Positions 45,984 through 61,063 of a stretch of DNA of 64,000 nt are shown here, piece after piece. The notes under the pieces were generated by a model. It worked only from the letters and a program-made list of their open reading frames with translations. It ran no database searches and was not told the origin of the DNA. Position 1 is the first letter of the stretch. Each line of letters opens with the position of its first letter. Made by a program: the position numbers and the translations under genes. This DNA is from Dyadobacter fermentans (GTDB lineage Bacteria > Bacteroidota > Bacteroidia > Cytophagales > Spirosomataceae): positions 496,001 through 560,000 of the forward strand of contig NZ_JAHXBN010000010.1 of assembly GCF_019924045.1 (NCBI RefSeq), in the 5' to 3' direction.

Positions 45984-46322
45984 CTGTATTTTACTTTGCC
46001 TATCAATTTAGTAGGATTTATAGTTTATTGACCACCCACTGATAACCACCAACCCGAACTGCCGCATGAACCTTTCCCGATCATCCCCATTCTGCCGTTG
46101 TTGTCGTTAGCCGGCAACAGTTTTGTTTAAACGTTCTTCTTTTACGTACCGGCGATTCTCGCCAGCCCGACGTACCGACAGCTCTGTTTCGGAAAACAGG
46201 GTTTATGGCCTATGGTCCATTGTCGGCGGAAGGCTAGTAACAATCGGCGGTCGGCTGTCAAGAATCCCGACGTAGTTGAATCTCCTGATTACCAGAACCA
46301 AGCCCCATTTTCACTAAATACT
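45984..46322 (+). promoter_or_regulatory. susC promoter motif and long 5' leader
   Basis: TACTTTG at 45992-45998, followed at once by CCTATCAATTTAGTAG, is near-identical to motifs at 53338 and 59453. It is followed by AT-rich TATAGTTT, fitting a -33/-7 pair with a spacing of about 20. The start codon is about 300 bases further on. The leader has short hairpins (GGCGA-TTC-TCGCC at 46151-46163, CTGTTT-CGGA-AAACAG at 46184-46199) and GACAG (46177) and CTGTC (46255) enclosing a 73-nt region, faintly like the structured elements at 53407 and 59658. No gene seen. Confidence 0.55.
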
Positions 46323-49431: not shown

Positions 49432-51027
49432 ATGAAAACCAATACATTCAAACATACCATTTACGCAGGTATCGCCGTGCTAACGCTGGGTCTTGCTTCC
49501 TGCGACTCCGGCCTGCTGGAAACCGTTCCTAACGACCGTCTTTCCGAAGATTTATTCTGGAAAACCGAAAACGATGCCAAACTAGCCGTTAACTCACTTT
49601 ATACCGACCTGGACAGCACCACGGCCGTCACCTGGGATGGCATTACCGATCTGGCGCATACCAACCAGAGCTTCAACGTGGCCGCGTATATTGAAGCGGG
49701 GAGTTACGATGCGACTAGTTCGGTGATTTACGATGAATGGAAACGGGCCTACCGAGGCATTCGTGGCGTGAATTACTTCCTCGAAAACGTGGATAAGGTA
49801 CCGAGCACCAACACCGCATTGATCAACCAGCTCAAAGGCGAGGCGAAGGCATTGCGTGCCTACCATTATCTGAAACTGGCAGGTTTGTTCGGTCCGGTGC
49901 CGCTGGTCACATCCTCGATCAGCATTGATGAGGGCCGGACATTGGTGAACACTCCGGTGGAGGAAATCTGGAATTTTGTAGAGAAAGAACTGACCGAAGC
50001 TGCGGCGCTGCTGCCGACTACCTATGGAGCTGCCGACAGAGGCCGGTTTACCAAAGGTGCCGCATTAGGCTTGCTCGCACGTGCGGACCTGTACGCAGGA
50101 CGTTACCAGAAGGCTGCCGATGCCGCGGACCAGGTGATCAAGCTCGGCGTGTATGGCTTGTATGATTCCTATGAAAAGCTATACAGCTATGCCGCGGAGA
50201 ATAACAAGGAAGTGCTTCTGGATAAACAGTATTTGAAAGATGTTTATCAAAATAATGTATTCAACCTGCTCGCGCCATACAGCCAGAAGAATGCGCAGAG
50301 TACCTATGTGCCGACAAAGGCTTTGGTGGATACTTATGAAACACTCGAAGGTAAGAAAATAACCGATCCTTCGAGCGGGTATGACCCGGCTAAGCCTTAT
50401 GCCAATCGTGATCCTCGTCTGAAATTCTCGGTATTCCTTGAAGGCGACGCGTTGCCGAGCGGTATTACCTTCCAGCCCCGCCCGACGAGCACCACCGCGG
50501 ACGCGATCGGAAGTACTTACATTGCCTCTACGACCGGTTTTAACATTAAAAAGTATATCAATACCGAAGATTTCGCGAACCCGACCAACAGTGGTATCAA
50601 CATTATCTTGTTGCGCTACGCCGAAGTATTGTTGACTTACGCCGAAGCGAAGATCGAGCTGGGGCAAACCGACGCGACCGTGCTGGCGGCGATTAACCAG
50701 GTTAGAAACGGCCGTGCGGACGTGAAGCAACCTTCGGTAACGGCTACCACGCAAGCGGCATTGCGGGACATCGTACGCCGCGAGCGGACTGTGGAACTGG
50801 CATTTGAAGGGCAGCGGCTGTATGATATCCGCCGCTGGAAAATTGGGGAGCAGGTGATGAACGGGCCGGTGTTCGGTATCACTTATCCGGATGCTACTGG
50901 TAAACTGGTTACGGTGCAAGCCGCATCCTCCGATCGCGTTTTCGATGGTGGCAGGCATTACCTCTGGCCCATGCCGCAAAAAGAGCGTGATTTGAATCCG
51001 AACCTGAAACAAAATCCGAACTGGTAA
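49432..51027 (+). CDS. SusD/RagB family nutrient-binding outer-membrane lipoprotein
   Basis: The 531-residue protein has a lipoprotein signal with Cys24 (LGLASCDSG) and SusD features: ETVPNDRLSEDLFWKTENDAKLAVNSLY at the N-terminus, TPR-like helices (AKALRAYHYLKLAGLFGPVPL) and the C-terminal RYAEVLLTYAEAKIELG and RRERTVELAFEGQRLYDIRRWK. It forms the lid of the SusC pore and binds the glycan. It lies 13 bases after susC in one operon. Confidence 0.95.
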   Translation: MKTNTFKHTIYAGIAVLTLGLASCDSGLLETVPNDRLSEDLFWKTENDAKLAVNSLYTDLDSTTAVTWDGITDLAHTNQSFNVAAYIEAGSYDATSSVIYDEWKRAYRGIRGVNYFLENVDKVPSTNTALINQLKGEAKALRAYHYLKLAGLFGPVPLVTSSISIDEGRTLVNTPVEEIWNFVEKELTEAAALLPTTYGAADRGRFTKGAALGLLARADLYAGRYQKAADAADQVIKLGVYGLYDSYEKLYSYAAENNKEVLLDKQYLKDVYQNNVFNLLAPYSQKNAQSTYVPTKALVDTYETLEGKKITDPSSGYDPAKPYANRDPRLKFSVFLEGDALPSGITFQPRPTSTTADAIGSTYIASTTGFNIKKYINTEDFANPTNSGINIILLRYAEVLLTYAEAKIELGQTDATVLAAINQVRNGRADVKQPSVTATTQAALRDIVRRERTVELAFEGQRLYDIRRWKIGEQVMNGPVFGITYPDATGKLVTVQAASSDRVFDGGRHYLWPMPQKERDLNPNLKQNPNW

Positions 51028-51044
51028 TTACTTTTGAGCAATGT

Positions 51045-51150
51045 GGCGCCAAGCTTAGCTTGGTGCCGCCTATTGTTCAGCCTCCGGCTGGCGGAAAGAA
51101 CTCCGGCCTGAGGCCTGCGAATAGTAAGCACCAAGCAGGCGCTTGGCGCC
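51045..51150. repeat. Paired hairpins with inverted-repeat symmetry after susD
   Basis: Hairpins GGCGCCAAGC-TTA-GCTTGGTGCC (51045-51067) and GCACCAAGC-AGGC-GCTTGGCGC (51128-51149) flank AGCCTCCGGCT and CTATT...GAATAG. The outer arms can also pair across the element. Same building plan as 43350-43410. Probably a REP-like element that also protects or attenuates the mRNA between susD and the sulfatase. Confidence 0.6.
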
Positions 51151-51176
51151 ATTTTACCTAAAACCACCTTAAAAAC

Positions 51177-52661: not shown

Positions 52662-52696
52662 ACTTGTAACCCTCGGGGTTGCGCACTATCTTTATT

Positions 52697-52978
52697 ATGA
52701 TCAGGACTTTTAACCACAAAGGACTTAGACTGCTTTGGGAAAAGGACGATCCATCGAAGTTGCCGTCTGGGCAAGTCGAAAAACTCAGGCGTATACTTTC
52801 AACCTTGAATACGGCCAAAAGCCTTGATCCCATCAGAGCAATTCCTGGCTACCGGTTGCATTCACTTTCGGGCAGATTGGAGGGGTTCTGGTCTGTATGG
52901 ATTACCGGGAATTATCGGGTGTTGTTCAGGTTTGAAAATGGAGATGTATTCAATGTTGACTATGTCGATTATCATTGA
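52697..52978 (+). CDS. higB: HigB/RelE-type mRNA interferase toxin (module 2)
   Basis: The 93-residue protein has the same motifs as the first HigB: IRTFNHKGLRLLWE, RLHSLSGRLEGFWSVWITGNYRVLFRF and GDVFNVDYVDYH. The start is the ATG at 52697; an earlier in-frame codon (52679) is in the promoter. A promoter-like TTG (52664-52666), N20, TATCTTTA (52687-52694) abuts the start codon, and AACCC-TCG-GGGTT lies between the boxes, echoing the operator of module 1. It overlaps nothing upstream and ends just before higA. Confidence 0.88.
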   Translation: MIRTFNHKGLRLLWEKDDPSKLPSGQVEKLRRILSTLNTAKSLDPIRAIPGYRLHSLSGRLEGFWSVWITGNYRVLFRFENGDVFNVDYVDYH

Positions 52979-52983
52979 GCGTT

Positions 52984-53283
52984 ATGGAAAGTGAAATGAA
53001 GCCGGTGCATCCTGGTGCGGTGTTGCGGGAGGATATCTTGAAGGAAATGAAAATCTCGATCACGCGGGCTGCGAGGGAATTAAATGTAAGCCGCAAGCAA
53101 CTTTCTGAGGTCGTGAATGAAACCGCTGCGATATCGGCTGAAATGGCCGTAAGATTGGAAAGCGGTTTCGGCGTGAGCGCGGAATTCTGGCTGGATATGC
53201 AGAAGAAATATGATATCTGGAAAGTAAAGGCTAGCGGGCGTGTGCAAAACATTCATAGGATTATCCCTTCACCTGTTTTTTAA
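52984..53283 (+). CDS. higA: HigA-type antitoxin (module 2)
   Basis: About 99 residues: MKPVHPGAVLREDILKE, an HTH (ITRAARELNVSRKQLSEVVNE) and EMAVRLESGFGVSAEFWLDMQKKYDIW, diagnostic for HigA. Starts at 52984 (ATG) or at a TTG (52975) overlapping the higB stop. It should neutralise HigB and repress the unit. This module lies on the plus strand between two sulfatase genes, whereas module 1 lies on the minus strand at 31 kb. Confidence 0.88.
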   Translation: MESEMKPVHPGAVLREDILKEMKISITRAARELNVSRKQLSEVVNETAAISAEMAVRLESGFGVSAEFWLDMQKKYDIWKVKASGRVQNIHRIIPSPVF

Positions 53284-53336
53284 CAAAAAATAAATGTGAA
53301 TTCCACATTTCATTTGCTTGTTCAAAGTATTTATCC

Positions 53337-53370
53337 TTACTTTGTCTATCAAATAAGTAGATTATATTAA
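53337..53370 (+). promoter_or_regulatory. Shared promoter-proximal motif upstream of the second sulfatase
   Basis: TACTTTG (53338-53344) followed at once by TCTATCAAATAAGTAG and then TATATTAA, with about 18-20 nt between the TTTG and the A/T box. The first 22 nt are identical to the copy at 59453 and nearly so to the one at 45992. The start codon is about 275 bases downstream. Confidence 0.6.
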
Positions 53371-53406
53371 GCTTCCGCTTCGCAATATTCAGAACGTATC
53401 TGCTTT

Positions 53407-53499
53407 CCGATACCCTAAGAGACAGTCCAGGCTCGACTTGCCGGAATTTTCGGTGGTTGTCAATTCATGCCAGTCGTCCGGGCTGTCGTAGGGTATCGG
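53407..53499 (+). ncRNA. Candidate structured leader RNA (copy 1, sulfatase leader)
   Basis: Outer stem CCGATACCCTA (53407-53417) with TAGGGTATCGG (53489-53499), a 3-nt/1-nt internal loop, second stem GACAG (53421-53425) with CTGTC (53483-53487), and an inner hairpin GAATT/AATTC (53444-53448 with 53462-53466) whose loop carries TTCGGTGGTTG. The element at 59658 has the same fold and loop sizes with a different outer stem that still pairs. The remaining leader to 53643 holds no gene. A cis-regulatory RNA is inferred; no known riboswitch class is recognised. Confidence 0.55.
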
Positions 53500-53643
53500 G
53501 AACAAAGATACACCGCAATTTACAAATCTGGTTGCCATTGCCGAAACACGCTGTTCTTCCCAATTTTAAAGGCTTCGCCCACGTTGAATTCAAGTAATCC
53601 AAGGGTTGCAATGTCTTTCTGAAGTGTATTAATCTACTCCACA

Positions 53644-55089
53644 ATGAAAAAGTATTGTTTTCTGGTTTCCCTCCTTGCTACATCGTTCTTTTGCCACCAC
53701 TCCCAAGCCCAGGCGCCCAAACCGGCACGCCCGAATATCGTGTTCATCCTGGCCGACGACCTTGGCTATGGTGATGTAGGTTTCAATGGACAAAAGCTCA
53801 TTAAGACACCCAATATCGATCGCCTCGCAAGGGAGGGGATGATCTTTAACCAGTTTTATGCGGGTACCTCCGTATGCGCACCCTCACGGTCGTCGCTCCT
53901 GACGGGCCAGCACACGGGGCATACGTATATCCGGGGAAACAAAAGCGTTGAGCCGGAAGGCCAGCAACCGATTGCCGATTCGGTTGTTACGATTGCAGAA
54001 GTTCTAAAAAAGTCGGGATATGTGACGGCGGCTTTCGGGAAATGGGGTTTAGGGCCTGTCGGCTCGGAAGGCGATCCAAACAAGCAAGGCTTCGACCGTT
54101 TTTATGGTTACAATTGCCAGAGCCTGGCGCACCGTTATTATCCGGAGCATCTTTGGGATAACAGCAAGAAAATACTTTTGGAAGGAAACAAAGGGTTGAT
54201 CAACAACAAGGAGTATGCTCCCGACCTGATCCAGAAAAAGGCGCTCAGCTTTGTCGATGCACAGGATGGCAAGCAGCCTTTCTTCTTGTTTTTACCTTAC
54301 ATTCTTCCACATGCCGAGCTGATGGTGCCCGATGATAGCCTGTTCAGATACTACAAGGGTAAATTCGAAGAAAAGCCATACAGAGGGGCTGACTATGGGT
54401 CGGGTGCCACAGATGGCGGATATGCATCACAGGAATTTCCTCATGCTACTTTTGCAGCAATGGTGGCACGCCTCGATTTGTACGTAGGGCAGGTTGTGAA
54501 CAAATTGAAAGAAAAAGGTCTTGACAAAAACACGTTGATCATTTTCACAAGCGACAATGGTCCGCATATCGAAGGCGGCGCTGATCCGAACTTCTTCAAC
54601 AGCAGTGCGGGGTTCCGGGGTGTAAAAAGGGATTTGTATGAAGGCGGTATCCGGGAGCCATTTGCAGCCCGCTGGCCGGCGGCTATTAAACCCGGCTCCA
54701 AAAGCGACTACATAGGCGCATTCTGGGATATTCTCCCCACTTTCGCGGAGCTGGCAAGTGCTTCGGCCCCCCGTAACATCGACGGCATTTCATTTACGGA
54801 CGCATTGAAAGGCAAGCCTACCCAGAAAAAACATGACTATCTGTATTGGGAATTCCACGAGCAGGGAGGCAGGCAAGCCGTGCGGCAGGGTAACTGGAAA
54901 GCGGTTCGGTTGAAGGCAGCCGGTAATCCCGACGCGCTGGTTGAGCTCTATGATCTTTCGAAAGACCCGCAGGAAAAAACGAACCTAACCCCGCAATTCC
55001 CCGAAAAAGCCAAGGAGCTCGGTCAGATCATGAACCGAGCACACGTTTCCTCCGCTATTTTTCCGTTCGGGAGTTTGGCGACGAATTGA
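53644..55089 (+). CDS. Sulfatase (type I, arylsulfatase-like), canonical CxPxR
   Basis: The 481-residue secreted sulfatase has a signal peptide (ending HHSQAQA), metal aspartates D38/D39 (ILADDLGYGD), the formylglycine site CAPSRSSLLTG with Cys78, FGKWGLG and TSDNGPH. It resembles arylsulfatase A-type enzymes of glycan utilisation loci. It is separated from the first sulfatase by higBA module 2 and has its own promoter motif and structured leader, so its expression may be set independently of susCD. Confidence 0.92.
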   Translation: MKKYCFLVSLLATSFFCHHSQAQAPKPARPNIVFILADDLGYGDVGFNGQKLIKTPNIDRLAREGMIFNQFYAGTSVCAPSRSSLLTGQHTGHTYIRGNKSVEPEGQQPIADSVVTIAEVLKKSGYVTAAFGKWGLGPVGSEGDPNKQGFDRFYGYNCQSLAHRYYPEHLWDNSKKILLEGNKGLINNKEYAPDLIQKKALSFVDAQDGKQPFFLFLPYILPHAELMVPDDSLFRYYKGKFEEKPYRGADYGSGATDGGYASQEFPHATFAAMVARLDLYVGQVVNKLKEKGLDKNTLIIFTSDNGPHIEGGADPNFFNSSAGFRGVKRDLYEGGIREPFAARWPAAIKPGSKSDYIGAFWDILPTFAELASASAPRNIDGISFTDALKGKPTQKKHDYLYWEFHEQGGRQAVRQGNWKAVRLKAAGNPDALVELYDLSKDPQEKTNLTPQFPEKAKELGQIMNRAHVSSAIFPFGSLATN

Positions 55090-55097
55090 TGGACTAT

Positions 55098-55130
55098 AAG
55101 ACCTGATTAATTAACACACAATCAGGTCTT
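55098..55130. terminator. Bidirectional terminator between sulfatase and response regulator
   Basis: AAGACCTGATT (55098-55108) pairs perfectly with AATCAGGTCTT (55120-55130) between convergent stop codons. Weak T-tract on the plus side (TTGTTTC), and A-rich flank serving the minus strand. Confidence 0.75.
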
Positions 55131-55133
55131 GTT

Positions 55134-55751
55134 TCAAATCAACCCCAACCCTGCGGCAAGTTTGATCAGCGAAGCGGTATTCGAAACTTCAAATTTGATC
55201 AGCAGGTTCTGTCGATGACTGTTCACGGTCGTGACGCTAATAAACAGCTGCTCTGCGATTTGTGGGTTGGTGAGTCCTTCGGCAATCAGTACCAGCACTT
55301 CTTTTTCACGCCTGGTTAGAAACGGTACCGTTTTAGGCGCAGTGGCCGGGGTTACCTGGTCGAATTGGACATTCATAAAATAGCCTCCTGCCTGCACTTG
55401 CGCTATGGCTTCGAGGATATCCTCCTTCCCCGAGCTTTTGATCAGATAACCCGATGCGCCGTTCTGGATCATGCGCGAGACGTAGGCCCGCTCATTGAAC
55501 GTGCTCAATGCAAGTGTTTTCACCTCCGGAAACTGGTCTTTTACCTTTTTACAAAGGTCGATGCCGCTGATGTCCGGCAGGTTGATATCGAGAAATGCTA
55601 TGTCGACTTCGTTGCTTTTCAGGAATGCGATGGCATCAATGGCGTTGGTCGCGGTTCCGACAACCTGCACCTCTTCCACGTCGGCGAGCAGCGATTTCAA
55701 TCCTTCCAATACCAGCGGATGATCGTCCACGATGAGGATTCTGACACTCAT
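55134..55751 (-). CDS. NarL/FixJ-type response regulator
   Basis: The 205-residue protein has a receiver domain with phospho-acceptor Asp55 (DIAFLDINLPDISG), the DD pair near residue 10, Lys105-region (GYLIKSSGKEDI) and a LuxR-type HTH (about 140-200, LTRREKEVLVLIAEGLTNPQIAEQLFISVTTVNSHRQNLLIKF). It is the output partner of the TPR-kinase encoded 49 bases upstream on the same strand. Targets are unknown; the palindromic region at 57802 is a candidate site. Confidence 0.92.
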   Translation of the reverse strand: MSVRILIVDDHPLVLEGLKSLLADVEEVQVVGTATNAIDAIAFLKSNEVDIAFLDINLPDISGIDLCKKVKDQFPEVKTLALSTFNERAYVSRMIQNGASGYLIKSSGKEDILEAIAQVQAGGYFMNVQFDQVTPATAPKTVPFLTRREKEVLVLIAEGLTNPQIAEQLFISVTTVNSHRQNLLIKFEVSNTASLIKLAAGLGLI

Positions 55752-55800
55752 AATTTCTTTTTATTTAGGTTAAAGCCATTTCTGGCATTGATATCAGTCG

Positions 55801-57732
55801 TTAAAGCACAATTTCAACCAGTACCGACGTGCCTTCGCCGGGTTTCGACTGGATGTCGAGCGTGCCGTTCAGGTAATCCACGCGGGCCTGCACGTTGCGA
55901 AGGCCGGCACCTTTATTCTGTTCGAGGTTTTTAATGTCAAAACCTTTGCCATTGTCCTCCACAGTTACACTCACGTGATTTTCGACCCAGGTAAGCTGTA
56001 CCTGTGCTTCACTGGCGTCGGCGTATTTGAGCACGTTGTTGAGCAGCTCCTGGATGATCCGGTAAAGGACCACTTCCACCTGCGAGTCGAGGCGCTTGTC
56101 GTCGAAACCAAAGGCCTGCATATGTACTTTCAATCTCCCCGAGGCGCTGATGCCCTCGCAAAAGTCGCTCAGTGCGTCGATTAATCCGAACCGTACAAGC
56201 GATTCGGGCATCATGCTGTGGGCAACACGGCGCATTTCACTGATTGCGCCGTCCAATTGGGTTAGGGCCCTGGTAAACGTCATGGCGCTTTCTTCGGGCA
56301 GGATTACGTTTCCTTTCACTGAGTTCAGAGTTAGTTTGATGCCTGATAATAGTCCGCCCAGACCGTCGTGCAGGTCGCGGGCTACGCGGGTGCGTTCTTC
56401 TTCCTGTCCTTTCAAAATAGAATTGGTGGCTACCAATTGCTTTTCCTGCTGCAATTGCAGTACTTCCTGCTCGGCCACGCGCTTGCGGAATGCAATGTTC
56501 CTGTAAACCAATATCGCAATTATGAGCAATCCGACAAGTCCGGCGACAAGGCCGTAAATCAACGTGGTGCGCGTTTGCTTCTCTTTTTCTAGCGTTACGA
56601 TCTGGTTCTCTTTTTGGGCCGTCAGGTATTTCGTGTCGAGCTCCTGCAATTGTTTTTGAATATCGATTCCCTGAATGGAGTCGTTCAGGATCGAGTACTT
56701 CATCAGGTAGTCGTAAGCGCCTTTGTAGTTGTTCTGGCGGGCGAGGTCGGTCGCGTAGTCCTCATAGAGTTCCACCAAATGGTCGGTCATATTGTTGGCC
56801 TCCGCGATGGTGAGTGCTTCTTTGGTGTATTTGGCCGACAGATCGATTTTTTTGGCATCCTCGGCGAGAAACATCAGCGCTCTCAGGCAGTCGAGTTCCA
56901 AAAATACATTCCCTGATTTCCTGGCAAGGTCAAGTCCTTTTTGGCCGTAGATCCAAGCCTCATCCAGGTTTTTAAGCAACCGGTTGGTGCGGCAAAGTCC
57001 TGCATAGGCTTGCGTGATGAAAATGTCCGAATGGATTTTTTCGGCAACTACCAGCCCTTCTTTGAAATGGGCGAGAGCCTCATCGTATTTTTTGAGGTTG
57101 AAATAACAACCGCCGATGTTCGTCAGGATATCGGTCAGTTGCAGGCTGTCCTTCATCGGCCGGGCAAGCTGTAATGCTTTTTGTTTGTAAACCACCGACT
57201 TATTGAAAAGATTGGCATGCTCGAAAGCTGTACCGATACTGATATAAAGCCGGGGCAGAAACTCCTTCATCCCCAACTTATCAAACTGACTGGCCGATTG
57301 CTGGTAATATTTGATCGCTTCCGTGAAATTGCCCATGTAAGTGTAACTGGCAGCTATATTGGCATAGCTCTTGCCGATATTCACCTGGTGCTTCATCCTT
57401 TTGGCTATTTCCAGGCTCTCACGGTTCAATTTCAACCCTTCCTCGAATTTTCCCTGCAAATTGAGAATATAGGTGTAGTTCGATCGGAACTTGAACCGGC
57501 CGATATCATAGTTCAATTGTTCGCTGAGGGCATCCGCCTTCAGGTAATATTTAGCGGCGCTGTCGAGGTTCTGGTTTTCGAGATACTGCCCGTATTCAAT
57601 ATACGCGAGCACGCGGTTGGTATCCTGCTTGCTGGTCTGAATGCGTTTCAGAATCGCATTGGGATCGGGGCTCTGAGCAAGCGCCGGGATGCATAAAAAG
57701 AATATAAAAAGTGTTCGCAAATATAATTTCAT
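55801..57732 (-). CDS. TPR-repeat sensor histidine kinase (HisKA_3/HATPase)
   Basis: The 643-residue protein has a signal peptide (1-19, ALAQ), about eight TPR-like helical repeats (30-370, periplasmic), one transmembrane helix (about 390-412), a coiled coil, and a HisKA_3 domain with the phospho-accepting His455 (RTRVARDLHDGLGGLLSGIKL). The ATP-binding domain has N-box QELLNNVLKYA and G-box EDNGKGFD. No periplasmic propeller is present, so it is not of the hybrid type. It probably senses protein or peptide ligands and phosphorylates the adjacent NarL-type regulator. Confidence 0.92.
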   Translation of the reverse strand: MKLYLRTLFIFFLCIPALAQSPDPNAILKRIQTSKQDTNRVLAYIEYGQYLENQNLDSAAKYYLKADALSEQLNYDIGRFKFRSNYTYILNLQGKFEEGLKLNRESLEIAKRMKHQVNIGKSYANIAASYTYMGNFTEAIKYYQQSASQFDKLGMKEFLPRLYISIGTAFEHANLFNKSVVYKQKALQLARPMKDSLQLTDILTNIGGCYFNLKKYDEALAHFKEGLVVAEKIHSDIFITQAYAGLCRTNRLLKNLDEAWIYGQKGLDLARKSGNVFLELDCLRALMFLAEDAKKIDLSAKYTKEALTIAEANNMTDHLVELYEDYATDLARQNNYKGAYDYLMKYSILNDSIQGIDIQKQLQELDTKYLTAQKENQIVTLEKEKQTRTTLIYGLVAGLVGLLIIAILVYRNIAFRKRVAEQEVLQLQQEKQLVATNSILKGQEEERTRVARDLHDGLGGLLSGIKLTLNSVKGNVILPEESAMTFTRALTQLDGAISEMRRVAHSMMPESLVRFGLIDALSDFCEGISASGRLKVHMQAFGFDDKRLDSQVEVVLYRIIQELLNNVLKYADASEAQVQLTWVENHVSVTVEDNGKGFDIKNLEQNKGAGLRNVQARVDYLNGTLDIQSKPGEGTSVLVEIVL

Positions 57733-57801
57733 CGGACCCGGAGAGTAGAATGGATGGGAAAATTACGGTGGCAAAAGTCTGAAATAAAACCTTTTAATAA
57801 T

Positions 57802-57846
57802 ATCCTATAAACATATGATTTTCGAAAAATCATGCTTTTATAGGAT
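57802..57846. promoter_or_regulatory. Nested inverted repeat in the divergent kinase/lipoprotein promoter
   Basis: Outer arms ATCCTATAAA (57802-57811) and TTTATAGGAT (57837-57846) enclose inner arms ATGATTTT (57815-57822) and AAAATCAT (57826-57833). All arms pair perfectly. It sits 70 bases upstream of the kinase start and 90 bases upstream of the divergent lipoprotein gene, fitting a control site for both. Confidence 0.55.
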
Positions 57847-57935
57847 TGATCTGCGGCTTCCGGACAGGCTACCTTTGTCACGTCGAAAGGCAAAAATTAT
57901 CTCATCCATTATCCATTTTCAAATCCAATACAGCC

Positions 57936-58361
57936 ATGAAAAAAATTACATTCTTGAAAAACATTTTTGCTCTGTTGTTGCTCTCTACGTTGATGTTCGC
58001 TTGTAAAGACAAGGACAAAGACGTATCCCCGGAACTAAGCTCAAAAGTAGCAGGGACTTATAAAGTGACCAAGTTGACAGTCGACGGCGATGATTATCCG
58101 CTCGAAGTAGCCAAGGCCAGCATTACGATCCAGCTCGACAAGTTTTCTTCGGAAGTAGTGACTGGAAAAATGAAGGTAACAATCGACGGCGACCGCGAGC
58201 CGGACGAAGACCTTGGAACCCTGAACCTGAAAAATGCCGGCAGCACAGGCATCGATATTTACGAAAACACGGAGAAAGTAGGGAACCTGAAAGATGATAA
58301 ACTGAATATTTTCGTGGTATTCGAAGGCCAGGAGGTTGAGATGGTCGCGACAAAGCAATAA
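57936..58361 (+). CDS. Lipocalin-like lipoprotein
   Basis: The 141-residue protein has a lipoprotein signal (MKKITFLKNIFALLLLSTL, Cys23 in LMFACKDKDKD). The mature part (SSKVAGTYKVTKLTVDG, FEGQEVEMVATKQ) is beta-rich and lipocalin-like by pattern. An in-frame start 30 codons earlier covers AT-rich promoter sequence and is rejected. Divergent from the kinase gene and 40 bases ahead of a secreted protein of unknown function. Function unknown. Confidence 0.72.
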   Translation: MKKITFLKNIFALLLLSTLMFACKDKDKDVSPELSSKVAGTYKVTKLTVDGDDYPLEVAKASITIQLDKFSSEVVTGKMKVTIDGDREPDEDLGTLNLKNAGSTGIDIYENTEKVGNLKDDKLNIFVVFEGQEVEMVATKQ

Positions 58362-58401
58362 GCATTACCCATACAGATTACCCTTGATTACAATTACAGC
58401 C

Positions 58402-59307
58402 ATGAAAAATAAAATCATCCCTTTTTTCCTCTATGCGTTTTGCATTGCATTCCTGAACTTTACTTTCAGCGATGAGTTTGAAGAATATGGAATCAGCCAG
58501 AAGGATATTCAGAATCGTCTCTGGAACGTTTTACAGGCTCCATCGGTAAGTGTGCCGTACTTGGGGAGTTCGGTGAAATCGGCGTGCCGCTCGCTGGCAC
58601 CCGAAGCGCAGGCAACGGCCATTAAGAAAGCAGGTGCCTTTGTGAAGACCTATTTCAGTTCCGAGGATTTTCAGAAACGTTACGCCGACGCGATCTCGAA
58701 GAAATACCCGAAACTGGAAACAACCGTGAGCGAACAACGCAAAGCAGAAATCAGGGCAAACCGATTGAAAGGTGTACAAGGGTTGCAGGCAAAGGATATG
58801 GAGCCGGTGGTGGATATTCAGATCCAGTCGGCAGAGACATTTGTGGGTATGGAAAGCATGCTCAGCAGTATTCCGGCCGAACAGCGCGCGGATTTCAAGA
58901 AGCAGATCGAGGATGGGAAGCGTAATGCTGCGTTCTTCAAGAAGATCAAACCGCTTTTGAAAACCAATATGGAGGAATTTAAAAAGCAATATGCCGAGTA
59001 CCTGGCCGCCGACGAGATCAGGCAGTCGGAGCAGACGCTGGCACGCAATGCGAAAAGCAATGCCGACGAGTACGAGAGACTAAAAGATCCGAAAAAGGTA
59101 CTCACTGCGCGCCTTACCGACTTCCTCAACCAGAGCAAAGGCGTGGATTTCGCGGCGCAGACGAAAGAAATAAATGGTCGCAAGAAGTTTGTGAATGCGG
59201 CTTACGAGGGGAGAAGCGATGTGTGGAAGTTCTGTTACCGCATGGGCGCGACGCCCACCAATACTGCCCGCGCATTTGCGCAGCAGTGGCTTACCGAGTT
59301 GAAATAA
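58402..59307 (+). CDS. Secreted hypothetical protein
   Basis: The 301-residue protein starts with MKNKIIPFFLYAFCIAFLNFTFS, a signal peptide, and is otherwise strongly helical and rich in Lys and Ala (DFKKQIEDGKRNAAFFKKIKPLL, EEFKKQYAEYLAADEIRQSEQ). No domain is recognised. It follows the lipoprotein gene by 40 bases, so the two may be co-transcribed and linked to the divergent two-component pair. An in-frame start 22 codons upstream is rejected for lack of a signal. Confidence 0.65.
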   Translation: MKNKIIPFFLYAFCIAFLNFTFSDEFEEYGISQKDIQNRLWNVLQAPSVSVPYLGSSVKSACRSLAPEAQATAIKKAGAFVKTYFSSEDFQKRYADAISKKYPKLETTVSEQRKAEIRANRLKGVQGLQAKDMEPVVDIQIQSAETFVGMESMLSSIPAEQRADFKKQIEDGKRNAAFFKKIKPLLKTNMEEFKKQYAEYLAADEIRQSEQTLARNAKSNADEYERLKDPKKVLTARLTDFLNQSKGVDFAAQTKEINGRKKFVNAAYEGRSDVWKFCYRMGATPTNTARAFAQQWLTELK

Positions 59308-59360
59308 ATTGGTTTATATAAGGATGTACAGAGAGGTGCTACTGGCTCCTTTTCTGTCTG

Positions 59361-59407
59361 ATCCGTGGTCGGCAGCGCGTTACTGTCGCCACGGATTTTT
59401 TTATTTT
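59361..59407 (+). terminator. Terminator after the secreted hypothetical gene
   Basis: ATCCGTGG (59361-59368) pairs with CCACGGAT (59389-59396), followed by TTTTTTTATTTT. Confidence 0.85.
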
Positions 59408-59452
59408 CAAGAAAATTAGGCAAAGCTATTGCATTTTAAAAAACATTAAACT

Positions 59453-59490
59453 TACTTTGTCTATCAAATAAGTATACTATTAAAAGACAA
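59453..59490 (+). promoter_or_regulatory. Shared promoter-proximal motif upstream of the membrane-oxygenase operon
   Basis: TACTTTG (59453-59459) followed by TCTATCAAATAAGTA and TACTATTAAA. The first 22 nt are identical to the copy at 53338. It is about 350 bases upstream of the first start codon; the interval is gene-free and contains the structured element at 59658-59750. Confidence 0.6.
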
Positions 59491-59657
59491 AGCTCCTGAA
59501 CCACCCTGAGCTGAGTATTAATCCAGGCATCTTAGATATGAGCACGGTTAATTTACTTTGTAAGGCCCCATTGAGGGAAGTGGTAGGGTGTACCTTCACG
59601 CTTTGTTTTCATTCCGGTTGCTGTTGTTGAAACGGCGATCCATCCCTGACATTTATC

Positions 59658-59750
59658 GGAAATATCCCGCCTGACAGTCATGGCTGATCATCTGAAATTT
59701 TCGGTGGTTGGCGATTTCAGTTGCCGGCTGTGCTGTCCCGGGGTATTTCC
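59658..59750 (+). ncRNA. Candidate structured leader RNA (copy 2, membrane-oxygenase leader)
   Basis: Outer stem GGAAATATCCCG (59658-59669) with CGGGGTATTTCC (59739-59750), one G-U pair; 3-nt/1-nt internal loop; GACAG (59673-59677) with CTGTC (59733-59737); inner hairpin CTGAAAT (59692-59698) with ATTTCAG (59714-59720) whose loop includes TTTCGGTGGTTG. The 15 nt AATTTTCGGTGGTTG are identical to copy 1, while all the stems have changed with compensation. It ends 57 bases before the small membrane protein gene. Confidence 0.55.
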
Positions 59751-59807
59751 GCACCCATATTATCTGCTGCGTTTATACTAGACCGGTACTACTACACTAC
59801 TTGCAAT

Positions 59808-59930
59808 ATGTTCACATTCTCAGACGTGGTGCTGCTCGCGAGGAAGATCGCCGTCGGCATACTGCTTACATTAATTCCCTTTGTACTGATCGCCGGAGGC
59901 ATTTGGCTGGCGTGGAAATTCTTTATCTGA
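59808..59930 (+). CDS. Small single-pass membrane protein (40 residues)
   Basis: MFTFSDVVLLARKIAVGI at the start and a transmembrane helix (about 16-37) ending GGIWLAWKFFI. The reading frame extends upstream to 59721, but the 29 additional residues would begin within the structured element and lack any membrane-protein character. It lies 32 bases upstream of the oxygenase gene and is likely co-transcribed; it could be a small subunit of that enzyme, which is inference from position only. Confidence 0.5.
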   Translation: MFTFSDVVLLARKIAVGILLTLIPFVLIAGGIWLAWKFFI

Positions 59931-59962: not shown

Positions 59963-61063
59963 ATGAAAGTGGATAATGCATTGGCCCGGAAAATTACCCG
60001 CGACGGCCTGATCAGCGTGGTGCTTTACCTCGCGCCCATCGTTTTGATGTTTGCCAGCTTCCAGATTTTCGATTACCGGCCGTGGGAGGGAAGCAACCAG
60101 TTTCCTTTCAAAGCGCCTGCTTTTGTTGAGGCGGTTTTCAAAAACCTGAGTAGCTGGGGGTTGCCCGTGATCGTGCTCGTGCTGGGCGTGATCGAATTTG
60201 CGGCCGGCTTATATGAAAACAAATGGACCAAGAACGAGCGGATTCTGGATATTGTCTGCTTTGTGGTTCCTAAGCTGATTATCCGGCCGTTTGTCGCCTA
60301 TTTCGGATTGAAATTCCTGCCGCTGGTTCTGCCCGAAGCAAAAAATGCATTTGAATGGGTGCCATTCTGGTGGGCATTCCTGATCATAGCGGTGGCCGAT
60401 GACCTCACGCAGTACTGGTACCATCGCCTGCATCACCAGGTATCCTGGCTCTGGCGCTTCCACCGCACGCACCATTCCGCCAACTACATGGGGATGGCTA
60501 TGGCAAGTAGGCAGAACGTGATTTACACGCTGTTTTTCTCACAAACTTATCTTACCATCGCATTGACTTACCTGGGCCTGGGTTACGCGGCATTGTTTGT
60601 GAAAGTGATCAAATCGTTTATCACTACCGGTGCGCATTCGAGTATTCCCTGGGATAAGCCTTTCTATGAAATCAAATGGCTGAAACCCATCGGCTGGGTA
60701 TTGGAAAGGCTGATTTCCACTCCGGCCACACACCATGCACACCACGCCGACACGACCGACGACGGGATAGGCTATTACAAAGGAAACTTCGGTAATATGT
60801 TCTTCCTCTGGGATATCATTTTCGGGACCGGCATCATCACCCGCAAGTACCCGTCATCGTACGGCATTAAACATTACCAGGAGGAAGAATGGTACGCGCA
60901 GTTTATGTGGCCCATTTTCAAATCCAAGAAGGAAGGTAGTGAGCTGTCGCACAATGGACCGGTTGTTGGTGACGCGGTACCGGACACGCCGGAACCCATT
61001 ACGCTTCAACCTGATATTGCAACAAACACTACTGTGGCAGTGCCGACTGCCGCAGTCGCTTAA
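59963..61063 (+). CDS. Fatty acid hydroxylase/sterol desaturase superfamily membrane oxygenase
   Basis: The 366-residue, multi-pass protein carries the His-box set: YWYHRLHHQ, HRTHHS and HHAHH in STPATHHAHHADTTDDG, binding a di-iron centre. Compared with the AGMO-like protein at 44675 it lacks the C-terminal transmembrane bundle and instead has a Thr/Pro/Ala-rich tail (NTTVAVPTAAVA). Likely hydroxylates or desaturates a lipid (sphingolipid, fatty acid or carotenoid are family possibilities). Two paralogous members in one window suggest lipid-tailoring capacity. Confidence 0.85.
   Translation: MKVDNALARKITRDGLISVVLYLAPIVLMFASFQIFDYRPWEGSNQFPFKAPAFVEAVFKNLSSWGLPVIVLVLGVIEFAAGLYENKWTKNERILDIVCFVVPKLIIRPFVAYFGLKFLPLVLPEAKNAFEWVPFWWAFLIIAVADDLTQYWYHRLHHQVSWLWRFHRTHHSANYMGMAMASRQNVIYTLFFSQTYLTIALTYLGLGYAALFVKVIKSFITTGAHSSIPWDKPFYEIKWLKPIGWVLERLISTPATHHAHHADTTDDGIGYYKGNFGNMFFLWDIIFGTGIITRKYPSSYGIKHYQEEEWYAQFMWPIFKSKKEGSELSHNGPVVGDAVPDTPEPITLQPDIATNTTVAVPTAAVA

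Follow-up and report, generated by a model that had tools for sequence, protein, structure and literature searches.

Two copies of one RNA hairpin, here named H2, are found in the window, the whole stretch of 64,000 nucleotides (nt) of Dyadobacter fermentans DNA that was analyzed (NZ_JAHXBN010000010.1, positions 496,001 to 560,000), one of them in the leader of a sulfatase gene (copy 1, S-type) and the other in the leader of an operon for a small protein and a fatty-acid-hydroxylase-family protein (copy 2, D-type). H2 is a conserved sense-strand RNA structure, and it belongs to a sulfur/cysteine regulon that has a promoter-proximal motif in common. A second hairpin of the same gene set, H1, presents a loop complementary to that of H2, which suggests a loop-to-loop RNA switch. 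The favored explanation as a whole, to which we would assign a probability of about one half, is that H2 is a cis-encoded regulatory RNA hairpin of this regulon. The positions of the features are collected in Table 1, and loci and genomes carry our own numbers (L and G, respectively).

H2, a conserved sense-strand RNA structure

The two window hairpins have predicted fold energies of -50.1 and -48.6 kcal/mol (z -6.63 and -5.94), with 0/200 dinucleotide shuffles matching either fold. A 15-nt core, AATTTTCGGTGGTTG, is common to both, and a 13-mer, TTTTCGGTGGTTG, has 2 exact occurrences in the window and 2 in the whole 8.0-Mb genome. An earlier reading of this stretch, made from the letters alone (the sequence-only reading), had placed both copies, had described them as an 11- or 12-bp outer stem, a 3-nt/1-nt internal loop, a GACAG/CTGTC helix and an inner hairpin with an identical 15-nt loop core, and had assigned them to the leaders of a sulfatase and of a small-protein/oxygenase operon; position, architecture, core and genes all hold, the oxygenase being of the fatty-acid hydroxylase family. 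It had also claimed that the outer stems pair with compensation while sharing almost no sequence. The compensation stands, since five of the 12 pair positions are changed on both sides and still paired (one is changed on one side, five are identical and one is a gap), but the second part was overstated, as an ATA.CC / GG.TAT core is common to the two stems.

Across genomes, the conservation of the structure is apparent from an alignment of 41 diverse hairpins, in which 92.8% of the cells are paired, dropping to 35-48% when the partners are slid, in which two-sided changes are seen in 16 of 24 pairs, and for which 0/500 shuffles reach any of five pairing measures. G-U pairs outnumber A-C appositions by 22:1, 69:3, and 10:3 in the Dyadobacter groups, whose alignment was fitted to the sense-strand model and so leans toward the same outcome, and by 90:21 in the diverse set. 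With G-U so far above A-C, the sense-strand RNA is the folding molecule, which speaks against a DNA cruciform. The 7-nt loop, GGUGGUU, is closed by a C-G pair, and CGGUGGUUG is the same at all nine positions in each of the 41 hairpins; the GACAG/CUGUC helix and the C and G on either side of the loop are more strongly conserved than pairing alone would require. The closing pair may vary while the seven loop letters stay, as in L169, a locus from another genus outside this alignment, whose diverged hairpin carries UGGUGGUUA, with U-A replacing C-G.

As to the distribution, a covariance model of the two window sequences recovers only these two H2 places from the own 8.0-Mb genome, and such a model finds H2 in 44 of 48 Dyadobacter genomes, one or two in each. 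A model built from 66 hairpins gives matches in 52 of 222 genomes of the family, in 6 of its 36 genera, with one to three leader copies in a genome, and a broader model finds H2 in 23 of 390 genomes of the order sample, all within the own family. In these family and order searches, scoring covered the 10-18 top-ranked first-look candidates of each genome, so that the two counts are lower bounds. Among named records, 40/40 stretches matching a core pattern that was tuned to Dyadobacter forms are from Dyadobacter; the loci from such records (L185 onward, same species) are excluded from all these counts. One row, L057 (E 0.36, without leader context), was dropped before all the Dyadobacter counts, leaving 66 of 67, and these 66 places comprise 36 of the S-type and 30 of the D-type. 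A sulfatase follows 35 of the 36 S-type places, while the D-type places are followed by a small membrane-type open reading frame (ORF) in 28 of 30 cases and by a hydroxylase-like long ORF, as judged by eye, in 28 of 30, the motif rule having caught only 11. By manual reading, 13 of the 44 genomes have the S-type only, 8 the D-type only, and 23 have both. Fixed leader places, covariation and the G-U excess bear out the earlier view of a conserved structured leader RNA as opposed to a scattered DNA repeat, and neither of the two findings that had been named beforehand as refuting that view, scattered copies of the repetitive extragenic palindromic (REP) type and a lack of covariation, was made.

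Membership of H2 in a known Rfam class was also considered and is rejected. No family matched the whole window (4227 models, gathering score); on 53280-59830, with E up to 10, the only hit was a sub-threshold SNORD115, off H2; and 12 relative loci gave only one tRNA and one S-adenosylmethionine (SAM) riboswitch, neither of them on H2.

A sulfur/cysteine regulon and the complementary loop of H1

The promoter-proximal motif is present upstream of 36/36 S-type and 30/30 D-type places. In the window, the string TTACTTTGTCTATCAAATAAGTA heads both H2 leaders, and a similar string heads a SusC-SusD-sulfatase operon at 46000. Genome-wide, with up to 3 mismatches allowed, the motif string occurs at 10 places versus 3 for a reversed control. 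Some of the 10 precede sulfur-related genes, which include those for a PBP-like protein (below the Pfam cut-off), SusC receptors, a sulfatase and a cysteine-desulfurase-like protein, and several of the motif-bearing leaders contain short ORFs with terminal runs of cysteine (SCCCC, CRCCR, CCSCC). A cysteine ORF of this kind precedes H2 at 25 of the 30 D-type places, where H2 lies between the leader ORF and the gene; the same rule picks out 3 of the 36 S-type places, in a scattered manner.

The second hairpin, H1, is found near the leader 5′ end, upstream of the cysteine ORF, and its loop, AACCACC, is exactly complementary to that of H2 at 7/7 positions, with a predicted loop duplex of -11.7 to -12.5 kcal/mol. 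At D-type places, two hairpins with complementary loops, a feature of kissing regulatory RNAs such as those of I-complex plasmids, are both present in one leader. Among 91 distinct contexts, some of them related, the H1 loop is closed by a pair in 88, as UA, GC, AU, CG, UG, or GU, and 4.46 of the first six stem positions are paired, versus 3.04 in shuffles (0/1000 as good). Eight loci were left out of this stem test, seven judged to be chance matches plus L131, a real place that duplicates L176; L137 and L155 were also left out of the analyses of GGTGG spacing, of GGTGG flanks, duplexes and co-occurrence, and of G-U versus A-C. AACCACC itself is present in 28 of the 30 D-type leaders, the remaining two carrying transitions that still pair by G-U. 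Downstream of AACCACC, at 40-125 nt (about 80), GGTGG follows in 64 of 92 leaders, compared to 6.0 expected from mononucleotide shuffles. This site is linear and mostly inside the leader ORF (16 of the 64 are without a cysteine ORF by the rule); a hairpin loop at this site was considered and rejected, with flank paired fractions of 0.24-0.58 at loop lengths of 5-8. Given this site and the H2 loop, H1 has two possible partners.

The two window leaders, matched in the sequence-only reading, do match in H2 but are not equivalent: H1, the cysteine ORF and H2 stand in a single leader in copy 2, while copy 1 has H2 alone. Of the parts expected of an attenuator, regulatory codons near the leader-ORF stop are found for copy 2 and not for copy 1; as to a terminator/antiterminator pair, AACCACC has the two possible partners, the in-ORF GGUGG and the H2 loop, and a T-run is absent after the window hairpins. 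What that reading saw correctly was a conserved leader RNA. It overlooked the cysteine ORF, the AACCACC hairpin loop, the motif and the sulfur regulon, all of which alter the likeliest role of H2.

Outside Dyadobacter, the model search yielded 12 hairpins, distributed over 11 leaders, and nine of these leaders also possess H1, eight of them with the exact loop and L094a with AACCACT; L086 and L087 are without it. Three more H2-like hairpins, at L169, L170, and L177, came from reading AACCACC leaders and were thus selected H1-first, which favors H1, so that the unbiased count is 9/11. L177 belongs to a different family within the same class; its leader has the motif, H1, an ORF ending ...SSFCCC*, and a short hairpin whose loop reads CGGTGGTTG, followed by a SusC-like gene. 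The pattern defining AACCACC leaders is positive in 54 of the 222 family genomes, with 7 hits for the reversed control. In the phylum sample it is positive in 7 of 395 genomes, not above the reversed control, and by eye only the own genome and G821 look real. The pattern detects AACCACC leaders in seven of the 13 S-type-only genomes; in one more, G002, AGCCACC precedes the PBP-like gene.

Variations on these leaders were also observed. Tandem H2 hairpins (2668-2767 and 2844-2939 of L084) stand behind one H1 and one cysteine ORF, before a SusC-like gene. The motif and AACCACC are found at L133, L135, L165, and L173 before what appear by eye to be sigma-factor/anti-sigma genes, with no convincing cysteine ORF, and the motif, AACCACC and GGTGG at the usual spacing are found at L141, L162, L166, and L171 before rhodanese-like genes (also by eye), with no cysteine ORF by the rule. 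At L076, a locus of the own genome, a SAM riboswitch (RF00162, positions 1520-1613, 45.8 bits at a cut-off of 44.4) directly follows the same motif and precedes the cysteine-desulfurase-like gene; its structure is unrelated, making it a neighbor in the regulon and not a relative of H2.

A candidate loop-to-loop switch and its rivals

We consider it evenly balanced whether the two loops kiss, which would happen in cis in copy 2 and perhaps in trans for copy 1. In favor are the conserved structures of both hairpins, the exact complementarity of their loops, the presence of H1 and H2 together in D-type leaders and in 9/11 leaders outside Dyadobacter, the full order of parts in L177, the cysteine ORFs, the GGTGG spacing and the co-occurrence across genomes. 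If they do, the H1 loop would pair either with the in-ORF GGUGG or with the H2 loop, the two being in competition. The putative order of events would begin with a shortage of cysteinyl-tRNA, at which ribosomes would stall or queue at the cysteine codons of the leader ORF; the stalled ribosomes would cover or free the in-ORF GGUGG and so decide the partner of H1, and the choice of partner would set expression of the downstream sulfur-scavenging gene, up or down, with cysteine as the putative signal. In copy 2 all the parts are in one leader, and the pairing would be in cis. In copy 1 the lone H2 loop could meet only the H1 loops of other mRNAs, and it is a tentative, rather doubtful proposition that the sulfatase leader, having neither AACCACC nor a cysteine ORF, tunes other sulfur-scavenging mRNAs in trans through GGUGGUU. 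Were this true, ordinary mRNA leaders would be the regulatory RNAs of the network. Kissing loops would join the sensing of an amino acid through leader translation with loop-loop RNA pairing, and soil Bacteroidota might be credited with a concrete RNA mechanism for cysteine sensing and sulfur scavenging (sulfatases, TonB receptors). Even on a modest reading, two conserved RNA hairpins and a common motif are gained, which link many otherwise unconnected genes.

A number of observations weigh against such a switch. AACCACC is found in 0/36 S-type leaders, and cis pairing thus cannot account for the S-type loop; another cis partner for this loop was considered and rejected, as RRCCRCC is present in 8 of the 36 (1.25 expected, mononucleotide shuffles), is of three different kinds, and is absent from 28. 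In Dyadobacter, most of the H1 leaders inspected have no H2 in cis, and some leaders, L104 and L170 among them, have a weak H1 stem. By the energy model, the unpaired probabilities along GGUGGUU are 0.16, 0.51, 0.77, 0.78, 0.80, 0.55, and 0.24, only the middle five letters being above 0.5. Both loops are nearly invariant, leaving no room for loop-loop covariation, and the one-sided loop variants count little, since all are transitions and G-U-compatible by nature. The co-occurrence of the two hairpins, which speaks for the switch, comes from tests that ignore relatedness and partly rest on manual judgement: in Dyadobacter, AACCACC leaders are present in 39 of 44 H2-bearing genomes (G023 doubtful) versus 0 of 4 lacking H2 (p 6.5e-4), and outside Dyadobacter the pattern is positive in 6 of 8 model-positive genomes versus 9 of 166 others, two of these nine being judged real (G120 and G143, both with diverged H2; p 2.2e-8 counting those two). 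Finally, no H1 was found in seven H2-bearing genomes (G001, G005, G023, G036, and G040, which are the other five with the S-type only, and G101 and G108), even at looser spacing, the looser pattern matching in 7 of 12 genomes, with fewer rows than the control and none leader-like by eye. The PBP-like gene is likewise not found in these seven, but it is also missing from the H1-bearing G133, G143, and G155, and its absence therefore explains little.

These seven genomes make a loop-binding protein the main rival, one that we nevertheless hold to be somewhat unlikely. H2 would then be the site for an RNA-binding protein recognizing the CGGUGGUUG loop and the GACAG/CUGUC helix, with AACCACC in the cysteine leaders only sequestering GGUGGUU-type sites. 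This would account for the S-type leaders as well as for genomes with H2 and no H1 found, and the conservation beyond pairing needs, described above, agrees with it; by itself, however, it leaves unexplained the presence of AACCACC in a hairpin loop of the matching 7 nt on a covarying stem, and the U-A pair in L169 also argues against it. Much less probable is a role of H2 as a structural insulator that would shield the leader against Rho or nucleases by its stability, the loop being kept for some other reason: while the fold is very stable, and while H2 lies between leader ORF and gene at D-type places, neither the invariant loop nor its exact complement in H1 would be explained. Very improbable is an antisense RNA of H2 transcribed at the S-type place, which would imitate H1 because the H2 loop reads AACCACC on the other strand. 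Of the 36 S-type places, 23 do carry a minus-strand TAnnTTTG box at the 3′ border of H2, with 0.59 expected, as opposed to 0/30 D-type places, but a TTG at -33 spacing accompanies it in only 6 of the 36, the box is missing in one S-type clade, and the 22:1 excess of G-U over A-C shows that selection acts on the sense strand. A DNA repeat, mobile or of the REP type, or else a transcription terminator, as might be expected of a long imperfect palindrome, can hardly be credited and is rejected, given two copies in the own genome and one or two per Dyadobacter genome, at orthologous leader places in a fixed gene context (35/36 sulfatase, 28/30 small ORF), the strand asymmetry of the G-U pairs, and no T-run seen 3′ of either window copy.

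As to known systems, the Bacteroid-trp motif is a tryptophan-codon leader, and the rep leaders of I-complex plasmids have a leader ORF and long-range loop pairing controlling expression. The regulatory RNA hairpin proposed here resembles, by analogy, a cross between the latter and the cysteine leaders of Actinobacteria. In these, leader ORFs with cysteine codons are described upstream of cys operons (PMC1262725), conserved hairpins not being reported there. Alike are the short ORF, the run of cysteines near the stop, and the position before sulfur genes, whereas the present system has two conserved hairpins with complementary loops, is found in Bacteroidota, and mostly precedes scavenging genes. 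The I-complex rep leaders form kissing hairpin loops with the antisense RNAI (PMC10724649), and the loops of H1 and H2 would likewise be able to kiss; here, however, the system is chromosomal and regulon-wide, has cysteine codons in the leader ORF, and has at most a putative antisense RNA. The Bacteroid-trp motif (RF01692) is listed as a cis-regulatory leader RNA of Bacteroidetes (PMC2864571, in its Table 1), and H2 is similar in being such a leader RNA, probably of the leader-ORF kind, but differs in structure and matches neither RF01692 nor any other Rfam family. An RNA of this kind was not found described in the literature, covered mainly in its open-access part.

Feature positions and neighboring observations

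Table 1. Positions in the window of the two hairpins, their leaders and the adjacent genes.
Feature	Position	Strand	Remarks
H2 hairpin, copy 1 (S-type, sulfatase leader)	53406..53501	+	fold, pair comparison, covariance model
H2 hairpin, copy 2 (D-type)	59657..59751	+	fold, pair comparison, covariance model
GGTGGTT loop, H2 copy 1	53452..53458	+	
GGTGGTT loop, H2 copy 2	59703..59709	+	
H1 hairpin, copy 2 leader	59491..59512	+	loop AACCACC 59499-59505
Promoter-proximal motif TTACTTTGTCTATCAAATAAGTAG, copy 1	53337..53360	+	-7-like box, then CTATCAAATAAGTAG at 53346
Promoter-proximal motif, copy 2	59452..59475	+	CTATCAAATAAGTAT at 59461
Leader ORF, copy 2 leader	59538..59630	+	30 codons, ending ...HSGCCC*
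Sulfatase gene after copy 1	53644..55089	+	PF00884, E 6.8e-59
Small membrane-type protein, 40 amino acids	59808..59930	+	no Pfam match
Fatty-acid-hydroxylase-family gene	59963..61063	+	PF04116, E 1.3e-24
SusC-SusD-sulfatase operon leader	46000..46110	+	motif 46000, AACCACC 46044, cysteine ORF MNLSRSSPFCRCCR* 46066-46110, H2 none
-7-like box TATCTTTG at 3′ edge of copy 1 H2	53503-53510	minus	

Shortly 5′ of the sulfatase start, at approximately 53590-53640, the copy 1 leader contains a block, AAGTAATC..GGTTGCAATG..CTTT, that is partly conserved in other S-type leaders (several of 13 aligned). Between the SusCD-sulfatase operon and this leader, at 52679-53283, there are genes for a HigB-like toxin and a helix-turn-helix antitoxin-like protein. 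Within the operon, inverted repeats are found between the SusD and sulfatase genes (51020-51176), with AACCACC at 51162, just 5′ of the sulfatase start codon.

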